From contig JAUIDB010000001.1 in assembly GCA_030429235.1 (NCBI GenBank), forward strand, positions 1 to 64,000: DNA of 64,000 nucleotides, given 5' to 3'. The notes under the pieces were generated by a model. The model saw only the letters and a list, made by a program, of their open reading frames with translations, did not search any database and was not told the DNA's origin. Of this stretch, positions 24,933 through 44,131 are shown one piece after another. Position 1 is the stretch's first letter. Each line of letters begins with the position of its first letter. The translations under genes were made by a program, and so were the position numbers. The DNA is from Thermoanaerobaculia bacterium (GTDB taxonomy: Bacteria; Acidobacteriota; Thermoanaerobaculia; Multivoradales; JAIOJS01).

Positions 24933-26158
24933 GGCAGGACCGTGACCTCGGGAATCGCCACCACGAACCTCCCCCCCCAATCGCGTACGCCCGCCATCTG
25001 TTCCGAAATCTCCTGGCGCAGATTCCAGGGCAGGATCAGCACGTAGTCGGGCCGGGTCTCGAAGATCCGCTCGGGGGCCAGAATCGGAATTCGAACTCCC
25101 GGCAGGAAAAGGCCCTGCTTGTAGTCACTCCGATCGACGGTGTAGTCGAGGAAGTCGCAACCGACACCGCAGTAGTTGAGCAGGGTGTTGCCCTTGGCCG
25201 GAGCGCCGTACCCGACGATCGACTTGCCGTCGCGTTTTGCCGCGATCAGGAACTCCAGCAGCTTGCGTTTGGTCTCGCGGACCCGCTCGGCGAATCCATC
25301 GTAGAGTTCGACCGTCAGGTAGCCGAGCTGCTCTTCCCGGCCCAGCAGCTCGTCGACCGAGTCGCTGATCGCACCCTCGACCGTCGAGTGTCGAGCCGCG
25401 ACCCGCAACGAACCGCCGTGAGTCGGCAGCTCCTCGACGTCGTAGATCGTCAGGCCGTGGGCGGCGAAGACCCGGTGCACCGCCAAGAAGGAGAAGTACG
25501 AAAAGTGCTCGTGGTAGATGGTGTCGAACTGGTTCTCCTCCACCAGCCGCTGCAGGTGAGGAAACTCCATCGATAGCGTGCCACCCTCGGCGAGGAGGAG
25601 CGCCAGCCCCGCTACCACGTCGTTGAGATCGGGCACGTGGGCGAGCACGTTGTTGCCGATCAGCAGATCGGCCCGGAACCCCTCGTCGACCAGCTGCCGC
25701 GCGCACTCCGTACCGAAAAACTGGACTCGGGTCGGAACCCCCTCCTCGACCGCTCGGGTCGCGACGTTCGCCGCCGGCTCGATCCCGAGCACCGGAATCC
25801 CCCGCTCGACGAACCCCTTGAGCAGGTAACCATCGTTGCTAGCGATCTCGATCACTTGGCTGCCGGGGCCGAGTTCGAATCGCGGTATCGAGCGTTCGGC
25901 GAAGGCCCGGGCGTGGGCCACCCAGCTCGAAGAAACCGACGAGAAGTAGGCGTACTCGCTGAAGATCTCCTGCGGCGACGCGGCCTCGGGCAGCTGCACC
26001 AGGAAACACTCTTCGCAAACGTAAACGTGCAACGGATAGTGCGTCTCTCCCTGCGCCAGCTGCTCTCCCTGCAGGTAGGAGTTGGCGAGCGGCGTCGCGC
26101 GCAGGTCGGCAAAGCTGCGGGAGAGAGGAGCGGAGCAGAAGCGGCAAGTGGGTTGCAT
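24929..26158 (-). CDS. Sugar C-methyltransferase family (NovU/TylCIII-like)
   Basis: A 409-residue class I SAM-dependent methyltransferase with three parts: an N-terminal zinc-binding domain (CRFC at residues 4-7 and VCEEC further on), a central SAM domain (VIEIASNDGYLLKGF, GIEPA, NNVLAHVPDL) and a C-terminal domain (VGYGAPAKGNTLLNY) typical of sugar C-methyltransferases such as TylCIII/NovU. These methylate C3 or C5 of dTDP-4-keto-6-deoxysugars. The ATG at 26158 begins the zinc-finger region. A TAGCAT hexamer at 26211-26206 is the likely -10, giving a leader of about 40 nt. First gene of the three-gene operon with rmlC and the DUF4910 gene. Confidence 0.9.
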   Translation of the reverse strand: MQPTCRFCSAPLSRSFADLRATPLANSYLQGEQLAQGETHYPLHVYVCEECFLVQLPEAASPQEIFSEYAYFSSVSSSWVAHARAFAERSIPRFELGPGSQVIEIASNDGYLLKGFVERGIPVLGIEPAANVATRAVEEGVPTRVQFFGTECARQLVDEGFRADLLIGNNVLAHVPDLNDVVAGLALLLAEGGTLSMEFPHLQRLVEENQFDTIYHEHFSYFSFLAVHRVFAAHGLTIYDVEELPTHGGSLRVAARHSTVEGAISDSVDELLGREEQLGYLTVELYDGFAERVRETKRKLLEFLIAAKRDGKSIVGYGAPAKGNTLLNYCGVGCDFLDYTVDRSDYKQGLFLPGVRIPILAPERIFETRPDYVLILPWNLRQEISEQMAGVRDWGGRFVVAIPEVTVLP

Positions 26159-26205
26159 GGGAGAGGTTTCGAAACGAGGGTGGCCAGGACCCCGGTCGCG
26201 GCTGG

Positions 26206-26263
26206 ATGCTAGCAGAAACGGCACCCTTTCCCGCCCGAGCGTGTCCCCTCTCCGCGGTAGACT
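26206..26263. promoter_or_regulatory. Divergent -10 elements between the C-methyltransferase and GT39-like genes
   Basis: Minus strand: TAGCAT at 26211-26206, driving the methyltransferase operon. Plus strand: TAGACT at 26258-26263, then 7 nt and the GTG at 26271, the leaderless geometry. Confidence 0.5.
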
Positions 26264-26270
26264 CCGGCTC

Positions 26271-28445
26271 GTGTCCGAGCCGCTCCGCCACCGTCTTCCT
26301 TGGGTCCTTCTCGGGGGTCTACTCGGCGCTCTGCTGCTCGCCGCGGTGAGTTTCGACCGGGCCAGTTGGCCCCGGCTGGTGGGAGACGAAGCCACCTACC
26401 TGATGCAGGCCGAGAGCCTCGCCTTCGACTTCGACCTGGTGTACGAACTCGGCGACTACCAGCGGTTCGTCGACCACTGGGGATTCGCTCCCGAGGGTTT
26501 GATCCTGCAGAGCGGCGACGCCGGACAGACCATCACCTACGGCAAGCCGGCCATCTATCCCCTGGCCATCGCCCCCTTCGTGCGCTTCGCCCCCCGCCGC
26601 GGCGCCGCAATCGGCAACGCCTTCTACCTCGCCCTGGCCGGATGGCTCGTGGCTATGACCTTGCGGCGTTTCGCCGACGCCACCGCCCCTCTCTGGGTTG
26701 CCGCCTTCCTGTTCGGCTCCGTGACCTTCGGGCACGTGTTCTGGGCTCATGCCGACCTGTTCTTGCTCTGCCTGGTAGCCACGGCTCTGGCGTTGATCTA
26801 TCGCCAGCCGAGCGCTGACAGAGACCCCGACGAGACCCTCTCTCTCGCCCTGGCCGGGGTGCTCCTCGCACTGGTCGGTCTGTCGCGGCCCCTCTACCTA
26901 TCCCTGCTCCTCCCCGCCTGCCTGGCCACCGGGCGGCAGCGCCGAGCGCAGCGCTCGCTGGCCCTGGTGGCAGGGTTCGGGCTGGTGCTCGTCGCCAGTA
27001 TCCTGGTCAACCTCGGGGTCCGCGGCTCGTGGACCCCCTACGGCGGCCAACGGATGGGCTTCTACACCGAGACCGGTTTCCCGGCCGTCGACTTCGCCAC
27101 CGAGAGCTGGGAGACCAAGCTCGGGGAGCGTCCGGGGACCGGGTCCTGGGTCGATCGCGACAAGTTCCTCTTCCACTTCAGCCCCCGCCTCGCCGCCTAC
27201 GACCTCTACTACTACTTGACCGGCCGCAGCATCGGTCTGGTCCCCTATTTCCTGCCGGGCCTGTTTGCCTTCGTCGCCTGGCGGTCGGCGCGGGGCCGGT
27301 GGGCCCTGCCCCTGGCCGTCGCCCTGACGGCCGCGGGCTTCTTCTACCTGCGGGCCTTCAACTTCTACGGCGGCGGCGGCGCCCTGGCGAACCGCTACTT
27401 CCTGCCGATGTATCCCGCCCTCTGGTTCGTGGTCGCGCGCCGGCGCCACTGGTTGTGGCCCGTCGGAGCGACCCTGCTCGCCGCCCCCTTCCTCTGGCCG
27501 CTGTGGACCGCGCCCCGGGCCTTCCCAATGCACCCCGAGGGAGGGTTGCGCTACGTTTCGAGCGCCGCGGTCTCGCTCTTGCCCTACGAAACCTCGCTCT
27601 CGCACCTCAAACCGGCGGGCCGCGAAGACGTCTCCACCGGCGGCCTATGGGTGAAGTTTCTGAGTCGCGGCCTCGGTTTCGACCCCGACGCCAAGCGCTT
27701 TCGCCAGCCCGAACCGCGCGCGGTGGAACTCCTGGTCGGAGCCGATCGACCGCTCACTACCATCGAACTCTTCCTGGACCGGCCGGCCGCCGCCGTCCCC
27801 GAGGTCGGGGGCGCGATCCGCGACCTGACTCCCGCCGCGGCGGGGAGCAGTCGCTACACCCTCCGTCTGGGCCAACCGAGCGCCCAGCATCGCATGTGGT
27901 GGACCTTCGAGCCGGTCTACCTCTACCGGCTCGAACTCGACCAACTGGCATCCGGGCGGGGCTCGGTCAGCTTCGCCCTCTTCGCCCCGACCGAGCCTTC
28001 GGCCGAGCTATCGCCAGCGCAACCCGTCGTCGAGACGTCCCGCCGCCAGGTGTTGCTGGATCGTCCCCAGGCGCTTGAACGACGGACCGTCGAAGGCCTC
28101 GAAGGTCAACCCCGCGGCGCGGTAGGCGTCGTACAGTTCCCGCGCCCCGCGGCGCGCCGTCCACTGCAACTCGAGATCGGGAAAGGTCCGGGCGAGCTTC
28201 TCGAAGTCGACCCGGTAGCTGCGCTTGTCCGGCCCGGCATCGGGCGCCATGGTGAGCGAACAGCCCGGTACCGTTTCCGCCACGATCTCGGCCAGGTCCC
28301 GAATGCGGAAGTTCTCGTCGCTGCGGCCAACGTTGAAGGCCTCGTCGTGGATCCGGTCGCGAGGCGCCTCGAGCAGGGCGAGGAACACCCGGCAGATGTC
28401 CTCGACGTGTACCACCGGTCGCCAGGGACTGCCGTCGGAGAGTAG
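26271..28445 (+). CDS. Membrane glycosyltransferase, GT39/mannosyltransferase-like, with dubious C-terminal extension
   Basis: A polytopic protein that probably transfers a sugar or similar group from a lipid-linked donor outside the membrane. The first periplasmic loop has the acidic pair in GDEATYLMQAES, as in GT39/ArnT-like enzymes, followed by about ten hydrophobic segments and a soluble domain from about residue 400. GTG 26271 is set by a TAGACT hexamer 7 nt upstream. The first roughly 585 residues look native. The final 146 codons (28008-28445) are read antisense through the epimerase gene and look like shadow sequence, so either the gene has lost its natural stop or a frameshift near 28000 hides it. 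Neighbours are all polysaccharide genes. Confidence 0.75.
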   Translation: MSEPLRHRLPWVLLGGLLGALLLAAVSFDRASWPRLVGDEATYLMQAESLAFDFDLVYELGDYQRFVDHWGFAPEGLILQSGDAGQTITYGKPAIYPLAIAPFVRFAPRRGAAIGNAFYLALAGWLVAMTLRRFADATAPLWVAAFLFGSVTFGHVFWAHADLFLLCLVATALALIYRQPSADRDPDETLSLALAGVLLALVGLSRPLYLSLLLPACLATGRQRRAQRSLALVAGFGLVLVASILVNLGVRGSWTPYGGQRMGFYTETGFPAVDFATESWETKLGERPGTGSWVDRDKFLFHFSPRLAAYDLYYYLTGRSIGLVPYFLPGLFAFVAWRSARGRWALPLAVALTAAGFFYLRAFNFYGGGGALANRYFLPMYPALWFVVARRRHWLWPVGATLLAAPFLWPLWTAPRAFPMHPEGGLRYVSSAAVSLLPYETSLSHLKPAGREDVSTGGLWVKFLSRGLGFDPDAKRFRQPEPRAVELLVGADRPLTTIELFLDRPAAAVPEVGGAIRDLTPAAAGSSRYTLRLGQPSAQHRMWWTFEPVYLYRLELDQLASGRGSVSFALFAPTEPSAELSPAQPVVETSRRQVLLDRPQALERRTVEGLEGQPRGAVGVVQFPRPAARRPLQLEIGKGPGELLEVDPVAALVRPGIGRHGERTARYRFRHDLGQVPNAEVLVAAANVEGLVVDPVARRLEQGEEHPADVLDVYHRSPGTAVGE

Positions 28446-29099: not shown

Positions 29100-29879
29100 C
29101 TACAGCTGCCGCTGGATCCAGTCGAGGTCGCTCGGCTTGTACCACGGCCAACGCCGTGCCCGACCGGAGCGCAGCAACTCGGGAACGGTGACGAACCGGT
29201 ATTCGTTCCCGTGACGATGCAACAGTTCGGCTACGGCATCGACCGAGGCCGTGCGGTCCCGCGCCCGAACGTCGTGCGTGCAGAAGAGGCGGTCGTGAAG
29301 CAACGCGATCGCTCCCGGGCGGAGGCCCGCTTCCAGCCGCTGCACCAACGCCGTAGCCGGCTCCGGATGCCAGTCCTCGGCCATCACGCTCCAGGCCACG
29401 ACGTCGACCCCGGCGCGGGCCGCATCGAGGCGCGAGCGCCAGGTCTGATGCCCCCAGGGCGGCCGAAAGAGCGCCGGCTCCTCCGGAGGACGGGGGGGCA
29501 ACACCTCCTCGCACCAGGCGATCTGGCGCCGCCGCCAGGCCGAGGTGAGGAGTGGCATCGAGCTATGGTCCCAGGAGTGGTTGGCTACGCAGTGACCCTC
29601 GTCCCGGGCCCGACCGACGATCTCGGGATGGGCTCGTGCCGCCTTGCCCACCACGAAGAAGGTCGCCTGCGCTCCCGCCGCCCCCAGGACGTCGAGCAGA
29701 CGAGGTGTCGTTTCTGGATCGGGACCGTCGTCGAAGGTCAAAGCCACCAGCGGCTGCTCGGTGTCGACATGGGTGATGGTTCCGACGGACCAGCGTCCCC
29801 CGGCCAGTGACGCCAGATCCTCGATCCGCCGCTTGACGAACTCTCGGGCGGCAGAGCCCTTGGCCCAGGGTGCTGGCAT
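29100..29879 (-). CDS. Polysaccharide deacetylase (NodB/CE4 family)
   Basis: A 259-residue CE4-fold deacetylase removing N- or O-acetyl groups from surface glycans. The NodB signatures are present: ALTFDDGPDPE with the catalytic and metal aspartates, the HxxxH metal site NHSWDHSS, RPPWG and a late LLHD. No clear signal peptide from the chosen start, so it may act in the cytoplasm or leave by another route. ATG 29879 is fixed by TATCTT (29891-29886) exactly 6 nt upstream, the leaderless geometry; the longer frame up to 29933 would cross that promoter. It is divergent from the GT2 gene and co-oriented with the epimerase. Confidence 0.9.
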   Translation of the reverse strand: MPAPWAKGSAAREFVKRRIEDLASLAGGRWSVGTITHVDTEQPLVALTFDDGPDPETTPRLLDVLGAAGAQATFFVVGKAARAHPEIVGRARDEGHCVANHSWDHSSMPLLTSAWRRRQIAWCEEVLPPRPPEEPALFRPPWGHQTWRSRLDAARAGVDVVAWSVMAEDWHPEPATALVQRLEAGLRPGAIALLHDRLFCTHDVRARDRTASVDAVAELLHRHGNEYRFVTVPELLRSGRARRWPWYKPSDLDWIQRQL

Positions 29880-29885
29880 GGCGGC

Positions 29886-29980
29886 AAGATACCACAGAGG
29901 ATCGAGCCCCGATCTCGCCGGGAAACCCGGCACTTTCTACCGGTGGGCGCTTGTCCGGCCCTTCCTCGACCGGCTATGGT
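29886..29980. promoter_or_regulatory. Divergent leaderless promoters: deacetylase and GT2
   Basis: Minus: TATCTT 29891-29886, 6 nt before ATG 29879. Plus: TTGTCC 29951-29956, 18-nt spacer, TATGGT 29975-29980, 6 nt before GTG 29987. Both starts coincide with the predicted +1. Confidence 0.55.
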
Positions 29981-29986
29981 GCGGGC

Positions 29987-30889
29987 GTGACGCAACCTTC
30001 CCCTTCGCACTCCGAGTCCACCCCGCCCCTGGTGAGCGTCGTGATCCCGGCCAAAGACGCCGCGCACACGCTACCCGAACAGCTGGAAGCTCTCTGTGGT
30101 CAGGAGACGCCGCGAGCCTGGGAGCTGGTCGTGGCCGATAACGGCTCGCGCGATACCACCCGACAGATTGCCGAGTCGTACGCCTCACGCCTCCCGGCGC
30201 TGACCGTGGTCGATGCCTCCGAACGCCGGGGAGCGGCTCACGCCCGCAACCGTGGCGCCGAAGTCGCGCGGGGGGAGATCCTGCTGTTCTGTGATGCCGA
30301 CGACGTGGTGGCGCCAGGCTGGCTCGAGGCGATGGCCCGAGGGGTGGAGGAGGGGGGCTTCGTGGCCTCCCGCTTCGAGGTCCACCGATTGAACCGAGCC
30401 GCCGTCGCGGCCGCCCATCGCCATCCGCAAGAGAGCGGTCTGAACCCCTACACCTACCCCGACTTCCTGCCCCACGCCGGCGGCGCGGGACTCGGGGTGC
30501 GGCGGGACCTCCATCGCGAGATCGGTGGCTTCGACGAAGCACGACTCGCCCTCGAGGACACCGACTACTGCTGGCGTTTGCAGTTGGCGGGGCAACCGTT
30601 GGCCTTCGCCGGCGATGCCGTCGTTCACGTGCGCTTCAAACCGAGCCTGGGCGGCGATTTCCGACAGCTCTTCGGCTACGGTGTCGAAAACGTGAGAATC
30701 TACCGAGACTATCGAGCGCGCGGCATGAAGCGCCTGTCGCCGATCGCGGGGCCACTGCGCTGGATCAAGCTGATCCTGACCTCCTGGAGCATGCTGTCGA
30801 ACCGGCGCCGTGCCGGCTGGGTGGCGCAGCTCGGCTGGCGGCTCGGGCGAGCCGTCGGTTGCCTCCGCTTTCGGGTCTGGGCGCCGTAG
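29987..30889 (+). CDS. Family 2 glycosyltransferase
   Basis: A 300-residue GT-A fold glycosyltransferase using a nucleotide-sugar donor. Visible are SVVIPAKDAAHTL, VVADNGSRD, the DxD-type metal motif in LLFCDADDVV, GAGLGVRRDL and the acceptor-side LALEDTDYCWRL (the ED of the catalytic base region). It has no real membrane helix, so it probably works at the inner face of the membrane. GTG 29987 is set by TATGGT 6 nt upstream; the longer frame from 29870 would read through the promoter. It converges with the lipoprotein gene (8-nt gap). Confidence 0.92.
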   Translation: MTQPSPSHSESTPPLVSVVIPAKDAAHTLPEQLEALCGQETPRAWELVVADNGSRDTTRQIAESYASRLPALTVVDASERRGAAHARNRGAEVARGEILLFCDADDVVAPGWLEAMARGVEEGGFVASRFEVHRLNRAAVAAAHRHPQESGLNPYTYPDFLPHAGGAGLGVRRDLHREIGGFDEARLALEDTDYCWRLQLAGQPLAFAGDAVVHVRFKPSLGGDFRQLFGYGVENVRIYRDYRARGMKRLSPIAGPLRWIKLILTSWSMLSNRRRAGWVAQLGWRLGRAVGCLRFRVWAP

Positions 30890-30897
30890 CCTTTCCG

Positions 30898-32037
30898 CTA
30901 GGGAGGAATCAGCCGTCGCAACGGTTGCCAGCCGTCGGCCTGCCACTCGACGATATGGAGTGGCCGGTCCGCATCGTGGCTCGGGTCGAACCGCCACTCT
31001 CCCCCGACCCCCTCGAGGGTCTTGCGTTGGCTGATCGCCCGCTCGAGGTAGCGGCGAATGCCCTCTCGGGTCGGGCCCTCCTGGACCATCGCCCGTCGCA
31101 GGAGCTGCACCGCGTCGTAGGCGAAGACCTCCTCGCCCACCGGTGCGCTACCGAACCGTTCGAGGTATTGACTGAAAAACGGCTCCTGGCGATCGACCGC
31201 GGGCACGTAGAAGCGGGCGGCGCGCAGGGACGACTCCACCGCCGCCGAGCGGACCATCGGCTGCCGCGACAGGTCCTCGCCTCCGAGCATGGGCAGGTCG
31301 AGATCCAGCTCGGCGAGGATCCCCAAGGTCCAACTCGCCGACTCTGGACGGTGAAAGAGAGCCAGGAGATCGGGAGGGTCGGTGGTGAGTTCCGCCAGCT
31401 CCCGGCGGATCAGCTCGCGGTCGATCGGCCGCAGGGGTTCGCGGTGGAAGATGTGTCCCACCACACGTCCCCCGGCCCGCTCGACGGTCCGCTCGAACAC
31501 CTCGGCCAGACCTCGTCCGTAGGCATCGTTGACGTACACCATGACGATCTCCTGCCGGTCCCAGGTCTCCACCGCATAGCGTCCCAGAAGCTCTCCCTGG
31601 CGGGCGTCGGAAAGACAGAGCCTGTAGGTCCACTCCCCCTTGGTAATCGCCGGGTTGGTCGCACTGGTGACCAGGTGAGGTACCGCAGCCTGGTCGTAGA
31701 GGGGAGTGACCGCGAGGGTGCTGTCGCTGTTGGCACTGCCGACGACCGCCACCAGGTCCTCATCTCCCACCAGGCGGCTGGCCCAGTCGACCAGATCTGC
31801 AGTGGAGCCGGCGGCGATCGCCTCCGAGGTCTCGAGGCTCAGTGGCACGCCACCGACCCCTCCCGAGCGATTGATCTCGTCGACCGCCAATTGCACGCCC
31901 AGGATTCCGGGGCCGTCGGTGGTCAGACCGATGACGATCCGCTCGGGGGAGTCGCGGGAACAGGCCTGGGCCAACAGCAGCAGGCCGCAGGCCCACCACC
32001 AGCCGGAGGGTCGGCGAGCCCACCGCGGGCGGATCAC
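30898..32037 (-). CDS. Type I periplasmic-binding lipoprotein (branched-chain amino-acid-binding LivK-like)
   Basis: A 379-residue receptor-type protein. The N-terminus has an arginine-rich n-region, a hydrophobic core and the lipobox LAQAC (Cys26), so it should be lipid-anchored outside the cytoplasm. The rest is the two-lobed peripla_BP_6 fold: IVIGLTTDGPGILG, AVDEINRSGGVGG, VVGSANSD, VTSATNPAI and VYVNDAYGRG match LivK/AmiC-like proteins. No ABC permease or ATPase gene is nearby; instead it is the third gene after a hybrid histidine kinase, whose TGA overlaps its GTG start (GTGA). By inference it presents a small ligand to that kinase rather than to a transporter. Confidence 0.88.
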   Translation of the reverse strand: MIRPRWARRPSGWWWACGLLLLAQACSRDSPERIVIGLTTDGPGILGVQLAVDEINRSGGVGGVPLSLETSEAIAAGSTADLVDWASRLVGDEDLVAVVGSANSDSTLAVTPLYDQAAVPHLVTSATNPAITKGEWTYRLCLSDARQGELLGRYAVETWDRQEIVMVYVNDAYGRGLAEVFERTVERAGGRVVGHIFHREPLRPIDRELIRRELAELTTDPPDLLALFHRPESASWTLGILAELDLDLPMLGGEDLSRQPMVRSAAVESSLRAARFYVPAVDRQEPFFSQYLERFGSAPVGEEVFAYDAVQLLRRAMVQEGPTREGIRRYLERAISQRKTLEGVGGEWRFDPSHDADRPLHIVEWQADGWQPLRRLIPP

Positions 32038-34061
32038 GCCTCGACCTCGGCCCCCAGAGGACGGTTCAGGGCACCCCCCAGGACCCGTTCGTAGGCGGTC
32101 CAGGTGAAGGGCTTCTCGAGGTAAGGCATCGTCAGCTTCTCCCGGTAGTGCTGGATTCCCACGATGTCGGCGGTGATGAGCACAAAGCGCTCCACCAGGT
32201 CCGATCGGTGGACCTGGATCCACCGGTAGAGATCGAGACCCGACAGGCGGCCGGGGATCTTGAAGTCGGCCACCACCAGATCGACCTGCTCTCGCCGCAG
32301 GACCGCGATCGCCTCTTCGATCGTCAGGGCCTGGCGCACCTCCAGCCCGCGCTGCGACAGGAACTGGGTCTGGAGCTCCAGGAGCGGAATCTCGTCCTCC
32401 ACCACCAGGACCATGGCTTCCCTTCCCTTCAGCGAGGGTACGGAACGCGGCTCCTCTTCACCCTCGGCCCTCGCCTGACGCACTCTCGGCAGGCGGACCG
32501 TCAGCCGAGCTCCGACCTCCAGGTTCTCGGCCTGGATCTCGCCGTCGTGCTCCTCGACGATCCGATGACTGACCGCCAGTCCCATCCCCATCCCTTCACC
32601 CGTTGCCTTGGTCGAGTAGAAGGGATCGAAGGCCCGCTCCGGATCGTCCAGACCCGGACCATCGTCTTCGACCATCAGACTCACCACGTCGCGGTCGGCG
32701 GCGATCCGCAACTCGACCCGGCCCGCGCCCGCACGCGAGGCCACGGCCTCGAAGGCGTTGCGGAGAAGGTTGACCACGACTTGCTCCAGCCGGAAGGGGT
32801 CGGCAAAGACCAGTCTGGCCTCGTCGACCTGGTCGACCACCACCGTCACCGCCGGATCCTGCAAGAAGGGATTCGCCGCCAGGATGCCTCGGCAGAGCTC
32901 CCCCAGGTCTACTTCGACCCGCTCGAGTTTCGGCGGTCGCGCGTACTCGGCCAGCTGGGCCACGATCCTCTGGCAACGCTCCGCCTGGTGGAGCACCGTC
33001 TCCAGATCGCGGCGCTGCTCGTCGCTGACCTCCTCACGATCGGCCAGGAGCTGGCTGATGCCCATGATCACCGTCAGCGGATTGTTGAGCTCGTGCGCCA
33101 CTCCGCTGACCAGCTGACCCATCGCCGTACGACTCGCCGTGCGCTGCAGTTGCCGCTGGAGACTCTCGAGCTCCGACCCGCGTTGGGCGAAGCGCGTCTC
33201 GAGCTCGACGTGGTCGCGGGCCAGCTCGTCGGCCATGAAGTTGAAGTCCTCGGCCAGCTGCCCCAGTTCGTCGGGCCGGACGACCGGAGCTCGGGCCGCA
33301 AAGTCCCCCTCTCGCAACCGGCTGGCGGCCTCGGTCAAGCCGGCGATGGGGGCGAGAAACCAGCGCCGCAGGAGCGCCAGGAGAACCAGCGGGAGGAGGA
33401 GAACGCCAACCGCCAGCATCGGTAGGGTGGTCTGACTCTGGTCCGAGCTCCGCTGAATCGCCTCGATCGCCGCCGCCAGGCCGGCGAGTTGCAGCTGTCC
33501 CAACCGATCGAGTTCCTCCCCCGCCCGCCGGCCCAGATCCTCGACCTCCTGCCGGGAAACCAGGGCACGCTCACGTTCGCCGGCCTCGAGTTGGGTGTGA
33601 CTGATGAGGGCGAGGTTGCCGGAGGCCGAGAGCAGTTCGCTGATCCGTCCCACGGTCTGGCGCTCCTCGACCCCGACGTCGATCTCGAGGTAGCGGTTCT
33701 CGAGCCGTCCGAGCAGGAAGTTGATCCGCGCCAGCTGGATCGGGAACTCGGCGTCGATCCGCTCGAACTGGCTCCGCAGCAGGTCGAGCTCCTGGCGCAG
33801 AGCCACCCGCATGTCGAGCTCCAACTCGGTAGTCTGTTGGAACGTCCTGGTCAACGCGAGCGCTTCTTCCGCTTGTCGGTCGACGCGACGCGTCAGGGCG
33901 TAGGCAAACGCCAACAGACAGGCGCAACTGATCAGGACGAAGAGGAGGATCTCGCGGAGAACCGAGGGTCTTCGGCCCACCAATCCCCCGCGGGGCACCT
34001 TCGAATCCCCGGCCGGTGGCACTCTGGGATCTGGCCTGACCCGACCGCGCCCCTCGCTCAT
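32034..34061 (-). CDS. Hybrid sensor histidine kinase with C-terminal receiver domain
   Basis: A 675-residue membrane sensor: TM1 about residues 37-58, an extracytoplasmic mostly helical region 60-210, TM2 about 212-231, HAMP, coiled coil, HisKA with His323 in VAHELNNPL, HATPase_c (NLLRNAFEA, DDGPGL, GMGMGLAVS) and a receiver at about 549-665. The receiver has the acidic pair (VVEDE), phosphoacceptor Asp599 (VVADFKIPG), a Thr (LITAD) and Lys (LEKPF), so it is complete. No separate response regulator or DNA-binding output is in the operon. ATG 34061 overlaps the TGA of the methyltransferase gene (ATGA), and its own TGA overlaps the lipoprotein start. Confidence 0.94.
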   Translation of the reverse strand: MSEGRGRVRPDPRVPPAGDSKVPRGGLVGRRPSVLREILLFVLISCACLLAFAYALTRRVDRQAEEALALTRTFQQTTELELDMRVALRQELDLLRSQFERIDAEFPIQLARINFLLGRLENRYLEIDVGVEERQTVGRISELLSASGNLALISHTQLEAGERERALVSRQEVEDLGRRAGEELDRLGQLQLAGLAAAIEAIQRSSDQSQTTLPMLAVGVLLLPLVLLALLRRWFLAPIAGLTEAASRLREGDFAARAPVVRPDELGQLAEDFNFMADELARDHVELETRFAQRGSELESLQRQLQRTASRTAMGQLVSGVAHELNNPLTVIMGISQLLADREEVSDEQRRDLETVLHQAERCQRIVAQLAEYARPPKLERVEVDLGELCRGILAANPFLQDPAVTVVVDQVDEARLVFADPFRLEQVVVNLLRNAFEAVASRAGAGRVELRIAADRDVVSLMVEDDGPGLDDPERAFDPFYSTKATGEGMGMGLAVSHRIVEEHDGEIQAENLEVGARLTVRLPRVRQARAEGEEEPRSVPSLKGREAMVLVVEDEIPLLELQTQFLSQRGLEVRQALTIEEAIAVLRREQVDLVVADFKIPGRLSGLDLYRWIQVHRSDLVERFVLITADIVGIQHYREKLTMPYLEKPFTWTAYERVLGGALNRPLGAEVEA

Positions 34062-34855
34062 CGGCTAGCCGACACAGTGGCGGTCGCCGTTCCCCCCGCT
34101 GCTCCCCGGTCCACGGCTTCGATCCGGGACACCTCGCCGCTCGAGGCACCGCGGGCGGCGAAGACTCCCATCCACCAACTACCGCCGCGGTCCGCCGGCA
34201 CGACCGTCTGTTCGAGGGCGGGTAGCACCTCGAGGAGTCGCCGACGAATCGCCTGCGAGCGCGGGGTCTCGAACATTGACACGATCAACACGCCCTCCGC
34301 TGCGAGCTCCCCGCGGAAGCGTTCCACCGTCTCGATCGGGTCTTCGAAGTAGTACACGCACTCGTTGAGCACGATCGCGTCCAGCGCTTCGTCGGGCTGC
34401 CACCGCTCGGCGTCCGCCGCCAGGAGACGATCGCCGGGCTGTAGCCGCGACTGCCCCCGCTCCACTGCCGCTGCCGACAGATCGACCCCCAGGTAGCGAG
34501 CCGCCGTGGGTAGGTACGGGCGCAGCACCGCGTCTCCGGCCCCGATGTCGAGCAGCGAGCCGGCCCCAGCGTGGCGACGCCAGAGCTCCACCAATCGCTC
34601 GTAGCGCGGAATCTCGGCGGTGTCCTGGAGTAGGTCCCACTCGCCCTGGCGATACTGCTGGTCCCAGGCCTCGGCGCTCTGTGGCGCGTCGCCGCGAGTC
34701 GACAGGTCTTCCCAGGCTCGAACCCAACGTCGCAGCGCCCCGTGCCCGGGGAAGGTCCGGCCCCAGAGGTACCGATAGTAGAGCGGGTACAGGGGCCGGA
34801 AGCCCTTGCGAAGGATGCGCTTCGGGAGCGACGGAGGGGTTGAGCCGGTGGCCAT
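34058..34855 (-). CDS. Class I SAM-dependent methyltransferase
   Basis: A 265-residue soluble methyltransferase. The SAM site is LLDIGAGDAVLRPYL, followed by YLGVDLSAAAV, LLAADAERW and the post-motif LNECVYYFEDP. The N-terminal 75 residues are basic and aromatic and not typical of the fold. Substrate unknown. It is the first gene of a tightly coupled operon with the hybrid kinase and the binding lipoprotein (both junctions are 4-nt overlaps), so it may modify a component of that sensory pathway or its signal. A TAGGAT hexamer at 34873-34868 lies 12 nt upstream, giving a leader of only about 6 nt. Divergent from the flippase gene. Confidence 0.85.
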   Translation of the reverse strand: MATGSTPPSLPKRILRKGFRPLYPLYYRYLWGRTFPGHGALRRWVRAWEDLSTRGDAPQSAEAWDQQYRQGEWDLLQDTAEIPRYERLVELWRRHAGAGSLLDIGAGDAVLRPYLPTAARYLGVDLSAAAVERGQSRLQPGDRLLAADAERWQPDEALDAIVLNECVYYFEDPIETVERFRGELAAEGVLIVSMFETPRSQAIRRRLLEVLPALEQTVVPADRGGSWWMGVFAARGASSGEVSRIEAVDRGAAGGTATATVSASR

Positions 34856-34866
34856 CGGAATCGAGC

Positions 34867-34873
34867 TATCCTA
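34867..34873. promoter_or_regulatory. Symmetric -10 element serving both strands
   Basis: TATCCTA reads TATCCT on the plus strand (toward the flippase, ATG 34917) and TAGGAT on the minus strand (toward the methyltransferase, ATG 34855). One AT-rich core can thus serve two divergent transcripts. Confidence 0.45.
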
Positions 34874-34916
34874 CCTCGCGAGCGGCCCCTGCGCTTGCCC
34901 ACCCACTCCACACGTC

Positions 34917-36308
34917 ATGAGTCAGACCACCGGCCGCCGATTCCTCCACTCGACCATCGCTTCGTACGCCAGCCTGGCGGTGCGACTCGTGGTCCGGCTG
35001 GGCTCGCAGATGGCACTCGGCCGATTGGTGCTGCCCGAGGGCCACGGCAGCTACGAGCTCGCCTTCCGGCTCGTCATCATCTGCTCGGCGCTGCGCGACC
35101 TGGGGCTCAACTTTCATCTGATCCGCGATCGGCGGGAACCGTACGGCACGGTCTGCGCCTTCGGAATGATGCAGTCCCTGCTGGTGATTCTGCTGCTCTT
35201 CTTGGCGGCTCCTCTGCTCGGCGCTGTCGACCCTGCCTTGCCCACCGTACTCCGCGTGCTGGCCCTGTGGGTACTCTTCGACGGGCTGGTGGTGGCACCT
35301 CGAACCTACTTCGAACGCCAGCTCCAGATCGGCGAACTCGCCCTCCCCGAGGTCGGTCGCGGAGTCCTCAACGCGGCCGTCGCCATCACCCTGGCGGCGT
35401 TCGGATGGGAGGTGTGGAGCCTGGTGGCGGGAGAGCTGGTGGCGACCGCCGCCTTCGCCGGCTTCGTCTGGTACCGCGCGCGGGGCCGCATGCCGTGGGA
35501 GGTGAACCTCTCGCTGTTGCCCGACCTCCTGCGGCAGAGCCGCTGGCTGTTCTGCATCTGGGTCGTCCTGCAGGCCGTGGAGTACGTCGACGTGTTCATC
35601 GTGGGAGCGGTGACGCTCGACCCCGAGACGGTAGGCTACTACTCCAAGGCCTACCTCATCGCCTTCCTGGTACCGCAGATCGTGGCGCCGCGGGCGTTGA
35701 TCCCGGCCCTGGTCGAGCTGCGCGACGACGCCGCGCGATTCCTCCTCGCCTTCCGGCTCGGCACTCTGCTGCTCATGGTCTTCCAGGTGGTGGCCGGCTA
35801 CTTCCTCTTCTGGAACGCCGAGCGGGTGGTCGAGATCCTGCTGGGAGGGCAGTGGGAGCCGGCGGTGGCGATCCTCCGCGTCCTCTGCTTCGTCCCCTTC
35901 CTCGACATCTTCAAGGACCTCGGGGGCGAGGTGCTCAAGGTGGTCCATCAGGACCGTGCCTGGCTGGCGGTCGGCCTCGTCAACCTGCTCTGCTTGCTGG
36001 TCTTCGGTGCCCTGTTCACGGCGTGGTGGGGAGGGCGGGGAATGGCCCTGGCCAACCTGCTGCTGTTGGGCAACTGGTTGATGGCGCGACGCATGGCCCG
36101 GATCTTCGGAGCCGGCTTCTGGCAACTGGGCCGCGATCTCCTGCAGGTCTACCTGCTGCCGTTGCCGCTCTTCGCCCTGGCAGCGTGGTGGCTTCCCGCC
36201 GCATCCTGGGGCCTCTTCGCGGCCCATCTGCTGGTCGCCGCCAGCTCGGTGGCCCTCCTCGGCTGGCGTTTCTGGGAACCACTGCAGCGATTCCTCGCCG
36301 ACCGCTGA
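34917..36308 (+). CDS. Wzx-like polysaccharide flippase (MATE/MVF superfamily)
   Basis: A 463-residue membrane protein with about 12-14 hydrophobic segments along its whole length and the N-terminal pattern of O-antigen flippases (FLHSTIASYASLAVRLVVRL). Such proteins move lipid-linked oligosaccharides from the inner to the outer leaflet. It fits the surrounding glycosyltransferase, epimerase and deacetylase genes. ATG 34917 gives a natural N-terminus; longer readings add residues that cross the divergent promoter. No clear Shine-Dalgarno site is present. It ends 8 nt before the stop of the convergent alkaline-phosphatase-superfamily gene. Confidence 0.9.
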   Translation: MSQTTGRRFLHSTIASYASLAVRLVVRLGSQMALGRLVLPEGHGSYELAFRLVIICSALRDLGLNFHLIRDRREPYGTVCAFGMMQSLLVILLLFLAAPLLGAVDPALPTVLRVLALWVLFDGLVVAPRTYFERQLQIGELALPEVGRGVLNAAVAITLAAFGWEVWSLVAGELVATAAFAGFVWYRARGRMPWEVNLSLLPDLLRQSRWLFCIWVVLQAVEYVDVFIVGAVTLDPETVGYYSKAYLIAFLVPQIVAPRALIPALVELRDDAARFLLAFRLGTLLLMVFQVVAGYFLFWNAERVVEILLGGQWEPAVAILRVLCFVPFLDIFKDLGGEVLKVVHQDRAWLAVGLVNLLCLLVFGALFTAWWGGRGMALANLLLLGNWLMARRMARIFGAGFWQLGRDLLQVYLLPLPLFALAAWWLPAASWGLFAAHLLVAASSVALLGWRFWEPLQRFLADR

Positions 36309-36316
36309 TCCGACCG

Positions 36317-38125
36317 TCAGCGATCGATGTAGCCCAACGCCTCCAACTGCTCCAACGCTTCTTCCGACAGCTCCAGGGGCGTGCCCGGGCGCCAGGCTTC
36401 GACCAGGGCATCGAGTTCCGCCTGGCGCTCCGCCGGGGTCGAGTCCAGTTCGGTGATCCGGTTGCGCCGCTCCCCCGGGTCGCGCTGGCGGTCGTAGAGT
36501 TCCCAGCTGTCGCCGTAGGCCGACCAGATCAGTTTCCGACCCCCCTCCTCGACAGTCCGCATAGCGACCTCGGCGATGTAGGGGCGCAGGAGCAACCGGC
36601 CTTCGCTCGAATAGTAGATCGAGGCGTACCGGCGGGTCCGGTGGCGGCGCTGAGACCACTCTTCCAGCCCGCTGGCACCCTGCTCGGCCAAGACCTGCAC
36701 CAGGTCGTGCACATCGCGACCCTCGAGCCGCGCGGCGTCCACCGCCGGCTCCACCCCGGCTCCCCACACCGCCAGCGGCACCCGAAGCACCTCGTCGTAG
36801 AGTGAGAAACCGTGACCGAACAACTCGTGTTCGTAGAACTCCTCGCCGTGATCCGACACCAGCACGAAGAGGGTCGACCCGCCCAGTGCCGCCTCGAGCC
36901 GGGTCAACGTCTCGTCGAGTTCCACGTCGAGGTAGGCGAGTTCGGCCCGGTAGGCCCGCCACATCTCTCGAGCCGTCGGCCGCCGCGGGGTCACGCCGGC
37001 CAGATAGGGCTCGTGCGGGTCGAGGTAGTGGAGGTAGAGGAACTGGGGTTGGGTCGTGAGCTGCGTCGACGGCTGGTCCAGCCAGGCCTCCACCGCCCTT
37101 CCCACGGTCTCCGCCCGGGCGTAGGGGGTGGCCCGGAACTCTCGGAAGGTGTCGAAACCCTGGTCGAACCCGACTTCGGCTCCGACCGCCGCCCAGTTGG
37201 TGACGAGAGCGGTGGTCGCGTAACCGAGTCCGTGCAGACGCTCGGCCAAGGTGGTGTGCTCCCGGGCCAGACCGTCCTCGATGCCGCGCGCTCCGTGGGC
37301 CTCGGGCTGCAATCCCGTGAAGAAGCTGGCCATCGCCGGTCGCGTCCAGGTCGCGGCGCTCCACAGATCGGTGTAGCGCCGGGCCTGCTCCAACCGCGCC
37401 TCGAGCCGCGGCATCGATTCGCCCGACCCGCCCCAGTCCGAGAGCGCATCCGCCCGCAGGGTATCCAACAGGACGAACACCACGTGGGGCCGTGGTTGCG
37501 CGTCGAGAGCGGCTTCTGCGCCGTCGGCATGGATGGACACGGCGGCCTGAGTGGACACGGCCACCTGGCCCTCCGCCCCGTGCCGGGCGAACAGGGCATG
37601 GCGCGCTTCGGCGACCGAGGAACCCGACAGGTAGTAGGCCGGGGTGCCCAGCAGGGTGTTGTGGCGCAGCAGGTGCCAGCCCCAGGGGCCGGCACTCTGC
37701 AGGACGCCGAGGGCAACGACCGCCACCCCGGCGCCCAGGGTCAAAGCCCACCAGAGGTCCCGCCAGCCCGCCCGCTCCTCGGCCAGGTGCCGGCAGAGCG
37801 GCAGGAGCAGCAGGCTCGACAGAAGCAACCCGAGAGCGAGAGCACCAAAACCCTCCGGCCACCGGGTCGTTTCGCGCAGCTGCCACCAGAGGACCAGCGC
37901 CAGGCCACCTGCCGCCAGGAATCGTCCCGCGTGCCCCCCCGCCAGCCATCTCGCCCCGAGGACCACGGCGGCGGCCAGCAGAAGGTAGAGGCCGGAGAAG
38001 AGCAGGCCGGCCGACACGTCCCAGTCACTCGAGCTGCCCACCCAGGCGAGCCCTACCAGGACCAGCCCGAGCAGGGTGGTCGCGGTCAGGGTCCAGAACG
38101 GTCGCCAGGGAGTCTTCGGTTGCAC
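36317..38125 (-). CDS. Membrane-anchored alkaline-phosphatase-superfamily (sulfatase-like) enzyme without the sulfatase cysteine
   Basis: A 602-residue protein: four or so N-terminal transmembrane helices (to about residue 155), a linker, then an extracytoplasmic sulfatase-fold domain. Metal residues are seen in VFVLLDTLRADAL and VSDHGEEFYEHELFGHG. The nucleophile region reads WTRPAMASFFTG: there is no CxPSR, so the formylglycine of true sulfatases cannot form, and a threonine may act as in phosphoethanolamine transferases and phosphonate hydrolases. The C-terminus EQLEALGYI recurs in the second such protein at 42284. GTG 38125 is set by TAGCTT (38138-38133) 7 nt upstream. Likely role: adding or removing phospho-groups on surface glycans. 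Confidence 0.85.
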   Translation of the reverse strand: MQPKTPWRPFWTLTATTLLGLVLVGLAWVGSSSDWDVSAGLLFSGLYLLLAAAVVLGARWLAGGHAGRFLAAGGLALVLWWQLRETTRWPEGFGALALGLLLSSLLLLPLCRHLAEERAGWRDLWWALTLGAGVAVVALGVLQSAGPWGWHLLRHNTLLGTPAYYLSGSSVAEARHALFARHGAEGQVAVSTQAAVSIHADGAEAALDAQPRPHVVFVLLDTLRADALSDWGGSGESMPRLEARLEQARRYTDLWSAATWTRPAMASFFTGLQPEAHGARGIEDGLAREHTTLAERLHGLGYATTALVTNWAAVGAEVGFDQGFDTFREFRATPYARAETVGRAVEAWLDQPSTQLTTQPQFLYLHYLDPHEPYLAGVTPRRPTAREMWRAYRAELAYLDVELDETLTRLEAALGGSTLFVLVSDHGEEFYEHELFGHGFSLYDEVLRVPLAVWGAGVEPAVDAARLEGRDVHDLVQVLAEQGASGLEEWSQRRHRTRRYASIYYSSEGRLLLRPYIAEVAMRTVEEGGRKLIWSAYGDSWELYDRQRDPGERRNRITELDSTPAERQAELDALVEAWRPGTPLELSEEALEQLEALGYIDR

Positions 38126-38132
38126 GCGCGGC

Positions 38133-38138
38133 AAGCTA
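38133..38138 (-). promoter_or_regulatory. -10 element for a leaderless transcript of the gene at 38125
   Basis: TAGCTT, then 7 nt, then GTG 38125. No -35 match. Confidence 0.5.
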
Positions 38139-41063: not shown

Positions 41064-42287
41064 ATGAACGTCGGCGTTCTCGCCCACAGCTTCCCGCGCT
41101 TCGCCGGGGACACCCACGGGCCCTTCGTCAAGCACCTCTCGGAGGCAATCGCCCGTCGCGGACACCGGGTCGACGCCCTCATCCCCTACGACGACGCCAT
41201 CGCGCCGGACCCGGCGACGCCGCTGACGGTGCACTCCTTTCGCTACATCTGGCCCGACTCCTGGCACGGCCTCGGCTACTCGCGCACCCTGCGCCGCGAC
41301 ATCGCTCTCGCCGGATTCGCCTACCTGCAGTCCCCCTTCTACTTCGCCTTCGGTGAGCGCGCCCTGCGCCGCTTGATTCGGCGCCGCAACCTCGACCTGG
41401 TCCACGCCCACTGGCTGCTGCCGAACGGCTTCCTCGCCGCCCGCGCCGGAGCCGCCCACGGCACCCCGTTCGCCGTGACCTTGCACGGCTCCGACATCTT
41501 CATGGCCGAACGCAATCCGCTGTTTCGCCGGATGGCCCGCTACGCGCTGGAGCGAGCCGCCCACGTGACCTCCTGCAGTGCCGACCTGAGGGACCGCCTG
41601 CTCGCACTCGGCGGCGAACGGCATGCCGACAAGGTCCATCTGGTGGCCAACGGCACCGAATTGCTGCCGCGGTCGGTGGCCACCGAGGGGGTACGGCAGC
41701 GCTGGCAACTGCCGGCCGAGGCGCCGCTGCTGGTGGCCGTCGGGCGACTGGTGGACAAGAAGGGCTTCCGCTACCTGCTGGAAGCGATGCCCAGCCTCCG
41801 CGCCCAGCACCCCGGAGTGCACCTCGCGGTGGGGGGAAGCGGCCCCCTCGCCGAACCCCTGGAGGAGCAGAGCCGCCGACTGGGGCTTACCGAGTGCGTC
41901 ACCTTCACCGGCGGCCTCTCCCACCCCGAGGTCCTGCAGCTCATCGCGGCGGGGGACGTCTTCGTGATGCCCTCGGTGCGGGACCCGAAGGGCAACATCG
42001 ACGGTCTCCCGATCGTGGTGCTCGAGGCGATGGCCGCCGGTCGGCCGGTGGTGGCCACCGACATCGCGGGCATGCCGCTGGCGATCGAGGACGGAGTCTG
42101 CGGACGTCTGGTGCCCGAGAAGTCCCCGGATGCCTTGGCCGCAGCCCTGGGAGACCTCCTGGCCCACCCCGAGTTGGCCCACAAATGGGGCGAGGCCGCC
42201 TGGCATCGGGTGGAGAAGGAGCTCAACTGGGACGCCGTGGCGTCCGTGCACGACGGCCTCTATCGGCGGGCCCTGGGAGCGGCGTGA
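41064..42287 (+). CDS. Family 4 glycosyltransferase
   Basis: A 407-residue GT-B fold retaining transferase. The N-terminal acceptor domain starts with MNVGVLAHSFPRFAGDTHGP; the donor domain has LLVAVGRLVDKKGFRYLLEA, VGGSGPL and the catalytic glutamate block GLPIVVLEAMAAGRPVVATD. It is soluble or peripheral and acts on a lipid-linked glycan from the cytoplasm. It follows the SGNH-dockerin gene by 13 nt and its TGA overlaps the GTG of the next gene (GTGA), so the three form one transcript. Neither ribosome site nor separate promoter is evident. Confidence 0.93.
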   Translation: MNVGVLAHSFPRFAGDTHGPFVKHLSEAIARRGHRVDALIPYDDAIAPDPATPLTVHSFRYIWPDSWHGLGYSRTLRRDIALAGFAYLQSPFYFAFGERALRRLIRRRNLDLVHAHWLLPNGFLAARAGAAHGTPFAVTLHGSDIFMAERNPLFRRMARYALERAAHVTSCSADLRDRLLALGGERHADKVHLVANGTELLPRSVATEGVRQRWQLPAEAPLLVAVGRLVDKKGFRYLLEAMPSLRAQHPGVHLAVGGSGPLAEPLEEQSRRLGLTECVTFTGGLSHPEVLQLIAAGDVFVMPSVRDPKGNIDGLPIVVLEAMAAGRPVVATDIAGMPLAIEDGVCGRLVPEKSPDALAAALGDLLAHPELAHKWGEAAWHRVEKELNWDAVASVHDGLYRRALGAA

Positions 42288-44131
42288 ACGACGGTGGTCC
42301 GAAGGCACCGGGTCTCTCCTGGCTCAGCTCGGGACTGGCTGTCGGCGCCGCCATCGGAGGGGTCGTCGCGACCGTCCGGAGCCGGGCCGGCTTCTCCTAC
42401 GCCTTGGGCCTCGGTTTCGACAGTGCCGTCGGCGACCTGCTGTTCTGGAGCGGAGTCGGCCTCCTGACCGGAGGCCTGGCCTGGGGCGTCCGGGCCGGCC
42501 TGGCCTCGCTGGGCCGCGTCCGCGGGAGCGGGCCGCTGGCCTCCCTCCTGGCGGTCTGCCCCGGGCTGGCCTGGGGCGGCTACGAACTGAACCGGTGGCT
42601 CGGGATTCACCCGCGACAGCTCCTGTCGAGCCACGCCCTGTCTCCGAACCTCGGAATCATCGGCGCCGCCCTCGGCGCAGCGATCCTCCTGACAGTCCTG
42701 GTCGGCCGACGGTGGGGAGGCTCGGGTCGCCCGCTCGCCGTCGCCGGGCTCGTCGGGCTGCTCCTCGCCGGAAGCCATGCCTGGCTGTTTCGCGATGGAC
42801 AGGAGAAGTCGCGACCCGATGTCCTGATCCTGCTGATCGATGCGCTTCGTGCCGACCACGTCGGGGTCTACGGTCACGCTCGCGACACCACCCCCCATCT
42901 CGACCGGTTGGCGGCCGACGGCGTCCGCTTTGCCGAGACCGTCGCCTCCAGCACCTTCACCAAGACCAGCATCGCTTCGCTCTTCACTGGTCGCCACCCC
43001 TACCAACACGGCGTGTACTGGGGAGCCTGGACCGATGCCGACGGACGGGTCCAGGCGGACCTCCTGACGGAGCGGGAAACCACCCTGGCCGAGCACTTCC
43101 GCGAGCGGGGCTACCTGACCGAGGCCTGGGTCCAGAACGGGCACCTGCGGCGGGCCTTCGGCTTCGCCCAGGGGTTCGTGCACTACCGGGACCAACAGGG
43201 ACACTCGCCTCGCATCAATCGGCTCTTTCGAAGGTTCCTGCAACGAGCCGGTCAGCGGTACCCCTACCTCGCGTACCTGCACTACATCGACCTCCACGAT
43301 CCGTATCAGCCGCCAAACTCGTTCCGCGATCGGTTCGGGGACCCTGGTGCCCCCTACGAAGGCATCGACCTGACCCGTTGGGGCTCCTACCTCGAAGCGG
43401 TCCGAGGCGGGAGCGAACGCCCGACCGAGGAGCAGTTGCGCGGCTGGGAGCTTCTCTACGACGCCCAACTCGCGGCCGTCGACGCCGAGATCGGCGAGCT
43501 GCTGGACGCTCTGCGGGCCGAAGGTCGCTACGACGAGACCCTGATCGTGGTCACCTCCGACCACGGCGACGCCTTCGGTGAACACGGGGTGATCTCCCAC
43601 AGCACCGCTCCCTACGACGAGCTGGTCCTGGTTCCCTGGATCGTCAAGCTGCCCGCGAACCGCTTCGCGGGGAAGGTCATCGAGAGCCAGGTCGCGCTCG
43701 TCGACCTCCTCCCGACCGTCGCCGATGCCGTCGGGCTGGCGGGAGGCGTGGGGGCCGCGGGTTGCAGTCGCTGGCCCGAGATCCGGGGCGGAGAACGAGA
43801 CGGCGACGACTGCGCGCTCGCTATCTCGGAGATCGCCGAGGTCGAGGGGCAGGAGGCGACGATCGGACTCCGCCGCCATCAGCGCAAGTACATTCGCTCG
43901 CACGGCGGGCGCGAACAGCTCTTCGACCTCGCCCTTGACCCCGAGGAGCGGATCGACCGCGCCGACGACCCGGTTTTCCAAAGTGAGCTCGAGGAGCTTC
44001 GCCACCTCGCCTTCGAGATCCTCGCAGCCCGCCAACGTGGCGCCCAGCGCATCGACGTCGACCCGGCGACGCTGGAGCAACTCAAGGCCCTCGGCTACAT
44101 CGGCGGAATAGACGATCCGAACGATCCGTAG
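42284..44131 (+). CDS. Membrane-anchored alkaline-phosphatase-superfamily (sulfatase-like) enzyme, second copy
   Basis: A 615-residue protein with about four to five N-terminal hydrophobic segments (to residue 165) and an extracytoplasmic phosphatase/sulfatase-fold domain: ILLIDALRADHVG, TSDHGDAFGEHG with metal residues, HDPYQPP. As in the gene at 36317, the nucleophile region (FTKTSIASLFTG) has threonine and no cysteine, so it is not a formylglycine sulfatase. The C-terminus again carries EQLKALGYI. Start GTG 42284 overlaps the GT4 stop by 4 nt; the frame is open far upstream but only as shadow. Third gene of the SGNH-GT4 operon, so it probably modifies the same glycan. Confidence 0.85.
   Translation: MNDGGPKAPGLSWLSSGLAVGAAIGGVVATVRSRAGFSYALGLGFDSAVGDLLFWSGVGLLTGGLAWGVRAGLASLGRVRGSGPLASLLAVCPGLAWGGYELNRWLGIHPRQLLSSHALSPNLGIIGAALGAAILLTVLVGRRWGGSGRPLAVAGLVGLLLAGSHAWLFRDGQEKSRPDVLILLIDALRADHVGVYGHARDTTPHLDRLAADGVRFAETVASSTFTKTSIASLFTGRHPYQHGVYWGAWTDADGRVQADLLTERETTLAEHFRERGYLTEAWVQNGHLRRAFGFAQGFVHYRDQQGHSPRINRLFRRFLQRAGQRYPYLAYLHYIDLHDPYQPPNSFRDRFGDPGAPYEGIDLTRWGSYLEAVRGGSERPTEEQLRGWELLYDAQLAAVDAEIGELLDALRAEGRYDETLIVVTSDHGDAFGEHGVISHSTAPYDELVLVPWIVKLPANRFAGKVIESQVALVDLLPTVADAVGLAGGVGAAGCSRWPEIRGGERDGDDCALAISEIAEVEGQEATIGLRRHQRKYIRSHGGREQLFDLALDPEERIDRADDPVFQSELEELRHLAFEILAARQRGAQRIDVDPATLEQLKALGYIGGIDDPNDP

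Follow-up and report, generated by a model that had tools for sequence, protein, structure and literature searches.

Do three genes that are joined by four-nucleotide overlaps also share a function? This question is raised by positions 30898-34855 of the window, that is, the entire 64,000-nt stretch of Thermoanaerobaculia DNA analyzed here, where a methyltransferase, a hybrid histidine kinase and a Peripla_BP_6 lipoprotein are encoded in that order on the minus strand. The stop codon of the SAM methyltransferase gene (34058-34855; PF13489, 2e-10) overlaps the start of the gene for a 675-residue hybrid sensor histidine kinase (32034-34061) in an ATGA junction, AGCCGATGAGCG. The stop codon of the kinase gene in turn overlaps the GTG start of the gene for a 379-residue LivK-like binding lipoprotein (30898-32037; PF13458, 4.1e-29) in a GTGA junction, GAGGCGTGATCC. 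The coupling described in a sequence-only reading of this DNA is therefore confirmed by both coordinates and junction letters, and it is not a chance observation, because the encoded domains are conserved over their full length and related proteins exist in other genomes. The same reading proposed a single signaling unit, in which the methyltransferase would modify a component by analogy with chemoreceptor adaptation. A tight operon with 4-nt overlaps, however, can bring together genes that differ in origin and in purpose, and the overlap alone is therefore weak evidence for a shared function.

The methyltransferase and the polysaccharide locus

The block is surrounded by a polysaccharide locus, in which Pfam searches identified an NAD-dependent epimerase, a polysaccharide deacetylase, a family-2 glycosyltransferase (GT2), a flippase-like protein and a sulfatase; a large membrane protein of the same locus (26082-28445) has no Pfam match. 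The GT2 gene (29870-30889, plus strand; PF00535, 2.6e-30) forms the left border of the block, and the flippase-like gene (Polysacc_synt_3; 34917-36308, plus strand; PF13440, 1.2e-38) forms the right one. The flippase open reading frame opens at 34806, and the ATG at 34917 agrees with the start of the counterpart gene, 71% identical, in G001, the only other genome of the genus that was compared. The methyltransferase start is divergent from this ATG, at a distance of 61 bp. Two sulfatase-family proteins are encoded in the locus (36317-38134, minus strand, and 41894-44131, plus strand), the second of which adjoins a family-4 glycosyltransferase; this sulfatase and the family-4 glycosyltransferase are also neighbors in G087 (L069). 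Elsewhere in the window (18596-20212, plus strand), an N-terminal Rieske [2Fe-2S] domain is fused to a glutamate synthase FMN domain.

In G001 the cluster is collinear with the window from the DUF4910 gene to the open reading frame at 38247, and it contains no methyltransferase, kinase or lipoprotein. The GT2 gene there adjoins the flippase gene, and the three-gene block (30890-34916 in the window) corresponds to approximately 45 bp between the GT2 stop and the flippase ATG (contig C464). No relatives of the three genes were found elsewhere in this genome at the cut-offs used. The lack of all three together, as from one deletion or insertion, would fit a single functional unit, and so would the two overlaps, which suggest a single transcript and coupled translation. 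The distribution of the methyltransferase argues against such a unit. In five genomes belonging to the same order as the window, relatives of this enzyme (37-42% identity) were found without the kinase-lipoprotein pair, and in all five their neighbors are glycan genes. Two of these genomes, G087 (L069) and G086 (L070), belong to other families of the order and show the genes for flippase, methyltransferase, GT2, deacetylase and membrane protein in this order. As in the window, the methyltransferase gene lies antisense between those of its flippase and GT2 neighbors; no kinase or lipoprotein gene is present at this GT2-flippase site. The methyltransferase relative adjoins the flippase in G085 (L071), the epimerase and GT2 in G089 (L067), and the epimerase in G090 (L068). 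Conversely, no methyltransferase of this type was found near any of the ten kinase-binding protein loci searched. The triple itself is therefore not conserved, an outcome that the sequence-only reading had named as refuting its three-part system; the methyltransferase and the pair occur separately.

The family assignments point the same way. The only Pfam matches of the methyltransferase are to Methyltransf_23/11/12 (2e-10), Methyltransf_25/31 and NodS, none of them a CheR-family entry, and Pfam shows no MCP signaling domain (MCPsignal) in the kinase. Chemoreceptor adaptation, which combines CheR with a methylated receptor, thus differs from the window in both respects: the window has neither a CheR-family methyltransferase nor MCP signaling and methylation helices. 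With relatives among glycan genes, no occurrence near the recurrent pairs and no CheR assignment, the methyltransferase is not supported as an adaptation component, and we regard it as extremely improbable that all three proteins form one signaling unit.

Judging from its gene neighborhoods, the methyltransferase appears to be an ancestral member of the polysaccharide locus, older than the arrival of the pair, and it is probably unrelated to the signaling of the pair. It would modify glycans as an enzyme of a locus that acquired the pair by insertion, and it would probably be co-transcribed with the pair owing to its position and not to a role in signaling. In the simplest history, the pair entered between GT2 and the methyltransferase, and G001 may have lost either the entire block or, in an independent event, the methyltransferase. 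The GC content, GC3 and codon use of the pair resemble those of its neighbors (the flippase values were left out of this comparison), and its entry is therefore not recent enough to show. A detectable recent foreign origin of the pair was rejected on the same grounds.

The kinase and the binding lipoprotein

The kinase has the order TM1, helical sensor, TM2, HAMP (33222-33374; PF00672, 3.2e-15), HisKA with H323 in GVAHELNNPL (32937-33122; PF00512, 1.2e-16), HATPase_c (32484-32801; PF02518, 4e-21) and Response_reg (32103-32411; PF00072, 2.3e-12), all on the minus strand. The H, N, DxG, F and G boxes are kept, as are the acidic pair (ED), the phospho-Asp (VVADFKIP), the Thr (LITAD) and the Lys (LEKPF) of the receiver, so the description of this protein as a two-TM hybrid kinase with a complete receiver was correct. 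Its relatives P0007 (34% identity) and P0006 have an identical domain layout.

The extracytoplasmic sensor (residues ~58-211, approximately 150 residues; 33429-33890) contains no Cache or PAS domain and is predicted by AlphaFold to be a four-helix bundle, with pLDDT >90 over most of the bundle, that continues into TM2 and HAMP. Its best structural matches are the LytS sensors of XylFII-LytS complexes (Z 17.5 and 17.4, 119-121 residues, rmsd 1.7-1.9, VIA-align), tied with the chemoreceptor MCP2201 (Z 17.0). Because the four-helix bundle is a common fold, the modeled sensor is compatible with docking of a binding protein but is no proof of it.

The AlphaFold model of the lipoprotein (pLDDT 88.8) matches best the LivK structure 3td9 (Z 38.8) and the LivJ structure 4gnr (Z 38.5). 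Its description as a LivK-like lipoprotein is supported as regards the Peripla_BP_6 family and is less straightforward as regards the lipid anchor: the lipobox LAQA-C is imperfect, and the presumed lipidation site Cys26 (31960-31962, minus strand) falls in a column that is nearly invariant in 14 relatives. In E. coli, lipoproteins with a residue other than Asp at position +2 are sorted to the outer membrane. The residue at this position is Ser, and the tether comprises approximately 8 residues; if the lipoprotein sits in the outer membrane, such a tether could not reach a kinase in the inner membrane, which would count against docking.

Residues of a LivJ-type amino-acid pocket were identified by alignment with 4GNR and by conservation at Ser104 (31726-31728), Thr127 (31657-31659) and Glu254 (31276-31278), all on the minus strand. 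Allowing for Thr/Ser and Asp/Glu exchange, their equivalents are present in 17 of 17 Liv-adjacent proteins and in 5 of 5 proteins of the kinase clade. We take these positions to hold the amino-acid backbone, as in LivJ/LBP-type structures. The four aligned rows of the kinase clade lack a nine-column stretch of the Liv-type rows, LTGxxAxFG; this loop lines the side-chain pocket. With the backbone residues kept and the LTG loop lost, one would therefore expect a ligand that resembles an amino acid in its backbone but differs in its side chain, and the ligand is probably an amino acid or an amino-acid-like molecule.

The lack of a transporter, noted for the block itself, holds genome-wide with regard to permeases of the LivH/LivM type. 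A search with PF02653 (BPD_transp_2, LivH/LivM and relatives) gave no match in this genome (4.85 Mb, completeness 100), and the same control was positive in 12 of 14 genomes. With no such permease encoded, the binding protein is not part of a LivHMGF-type importer, and this candidate role was rejected; nor was a Liv-type ABC importer with which it could pair found elsewhere in the genome. The genome has one further Peripla_BP_6 gene, a distant one that adjoins the gene for an ABC-2 membrane protein (L047:7804-10948, contig C70 at ~180 kb). A Peripla_BP_6 protein adjoins an ABC-2 type (exporter) membrane protein in G059 as well (L053:5918-8802), and this arrangement, seen in two genomes of the order, is not the layout of a Liv-type importer.

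Recurrence of the kinase-binding protein pair

The binding protein gene is next to, and co-directional with, a kinase gene in the window and at four further loci, L143, L144, L078 and L155. The hybrid kinase gene precedes the binding protein gene with a TGATG overlap in G368 (L143), and a kinase gene precedes it with an ATGA overlap in G365 (L144); the binding protein gene comes before a hybrid kinase gene in G036 (L078, GTGA overlap) and before the gene for a HAMP-GAF-HisKA kinase in G501 (L155). The binding protein of the window is 39-41% identical to those of G368 and G365 (39-52% among all three), the kinases of these two genomes are 31-34% identical to the window kinase, and the window sensor region matches the G365 sensor with 30% identity over 205 residues (E 5e-24). 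When the lipoprotein from G036 was used as a query against 396 genomes of the phylum, the two best matches (G368 and G365) both adjoined a kinase. In a tree of 88 binding protein relatives, the proteins from the window, L143 and L144 form one clade (support 100), which those from L078 and L155 join at 88, and Liv-permease-adjacent binding proteins fall in other clades. The G036 and G501 proteins are on long branches, and the wider group (support 88) is therefore less sure. G368 and G365, two distant genomes of the phylum, carry close pairs in unrelated surroundings that include no methyltransferase of the window's type, and G036 and G501 carry looser ones.

The close pair is rare, being present in 3 of 396 phylum genomes, with only the three known members above a background of ~170 bits; because these three were built into the model used for the scan, their own high scores arise by construction, and it is the absence of further members that is informative. 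A profile search of genome contigs with a single lipoprotein as query found no relative, and with an alignment of the three lipoproteins it found only the G365 contig and distant proteins, one of which (L149) adjoins Liv permeases. When the classes to which G368 and G365 belong were scanned, the single close match in each was the query genome itself, and the distant G501 was found in addition. The G365 contig is identical to the public Acidobacteria MAG contig RPQK01000632.1, which assigns the phylum of the window to Acidobacteriota.

This recurrence bears on whether the kinase neighborhood is incidental and the binding protein an orphan or retired component of Liv-type transport. Its best solved relatives are indeed transport proteins (LivK and LivJ), and a binding protein gene beside a kinase gene does not always mean a functional link: in P. 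aeruginosa, no interaction was found for AgtS and AruS (PMC11113362). However, the genome has no permease of this type, the kinase partner is kept, with tight overlaps, in four further genomes where the surroundings vary, and the paired binding proteins fall in one clade, which makes a transport remnant quite unlikely.

The surroundings are also relevant to another reading, in which the pair is a real sensor that specifically regulates its polysaccharide locus, including the methyltransferase gene. The pair lies inside this locus and overlaps the methyltransferase gene, whose divergent start is 61 bp from the flippase ATG. The neighbors of its relatives, however, are unrelated to such a locus (S9 peptidase, rhodanese, alpha/beta hydrolase), the locus occurs in other genomes without the pair, and no regulator was found among the scanned locus genes. 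We give dedicated control of the locus a modest chance of being correct.

The kinase of G365 (L144:211-1809, plus strand) keeps the sensor, HAMP and the H box, and has no HATPase_c match, no N, DxG or F boxes and no receiver. It is apparently catalytically dead yet coupled to an intact binding protein through its ATGA overlap; kinase activity would therefore not be essential to every version of the pair. Other combinations occur in the same order as the window genome: a Peripla_BP_6 lipoprotein adjoins a dCache-HAMP histidine kinase at L049:7115-11592 (with a receiver-GGDEF gene beside it), L052:5836-9140 and L055:3464-6834, and a Peripla_BP_6 binding protein adjoins a PAS kinase with receiver and Hpt at L050.

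A candidate binding-protein-activated hybrid kinase

Of the signaling unit originally proposed, the kinase and the lipoprotein remain, as their pairing recurs elsewhere and LivH/LivM is lacking, and the methyltransferase drops out. A conserved pair, retained amino-acid-type pocket residues, an intact hybrid kinase and the lack of a Liv-type permease, all read from sequence, suggest that the two genes likely encode a transporter-free sensory module, namely a binding-protein-activated hybrid histidine kinase with an unlinked output regulator, the methyltransferase standing apart.

Such a module is not without precedent. That binding proteins can activate sensor kinases is well established, with approximately ten characterized cases (PMC9602780), and the genes for the binding protein and the activated kinase are often adjacent (PMC11113362), so that the earlier remark that no described system with these three parts was known is wrong for the pair. 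On sequence and model evidence, the pair appears to belong to this class, which includes TorT-TorS, LuxP-LuxQ, XylFII-LytS, BctC-BctE and AioX-AioS: its genes are adjacent and co-directional, and its kinase has two TM segments and an extracytoplasmic domain. XylFII-LytS of Clostridium beijerinckii likewise combines a transporter-free binding protein with a histidine kinase that has a four-helix-bundle sensor, on which XylFII docks and which is the best structural match of the predicted window sensor; in contrast, the window binding protein is LivK-like (Peripla_BP_6) and the window kinase carries a receiver. XylFII binds xylose, and LytS is not a hybrid and works with a response regulator. In TorT-TorS and LuxP-LuxQ, a periplasmic binding protein controls a hybrid histidine kinase that, like the window kinase, carries a receiver. 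TorS, unlike the window kinase, also carries an Hpt domain, LuxQ has a PAS-like periplasmic domain, and TorT and LuxP are of sugar-type families. LivJ/LivK of HAAT-type ABC importers and AmiC share with the window protein the fold, the Pfam family and the pocket Ser, Thr and Asp/Glu; LivJ/LivK differ in that the window genome has no LivH/LivM permease and LTGxxAxFG is missing in the kinase-clade rows. AmiC acts in the cytoplasm, on the antiterminator AmiR. In GlnH-GlnX-PknG of Corynebacterium glutamicum, an amino-acid-binding lipoprotein signals across the membrane to a co-encoded kinase (PMC9769921), although output there is through a soluble Ser/Thr kinase, with GlnX as a separate transmitter in the membrane. 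A search of open-licence papers found no described Peripla_BP_6-hybrid kinase pair.

In the mechanism that we propose, the binding protein, whether it is tethered or moves freely in the periplasm, would close around its amino acid or amino-acid-like ligand and then contact the four-helix-bundle sensor of the dimeric kinase. Such docking would shift the helices through TM2 and HAMP and so change autophosphorylation of His323. The phosphate would pass to the kinase's own receiver, which would most likely tune or drain the signal as an intramolecular gate or sink, and the output would be carried by an unlinked response regulator. No separate response regulator was found among the scanned window genes, in agreement with the sequence-only reading. 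The single Pfam match to Hpt in the genome is a CheA, and divergent Hpt proteins can escape Pfam.

We tentatively suggest that the paired binding proteins may represent a narrowly spread Acidobacteriota receptor family, in which a LivK-type protein was taken from transport, its pocket rebuilt through loss of the LTG loop, and now senses an amino-acid-like signal for a dedicated kinase; in G365 it would act through a dead kinase, as a heterodimer partner or scaffold. The pair offers a compact and testable case of an amino-acid-type binding protein shifted from import to signaling in a little-studied phylum, and the conserved pairs elsewhere allow comparison with that of the window.
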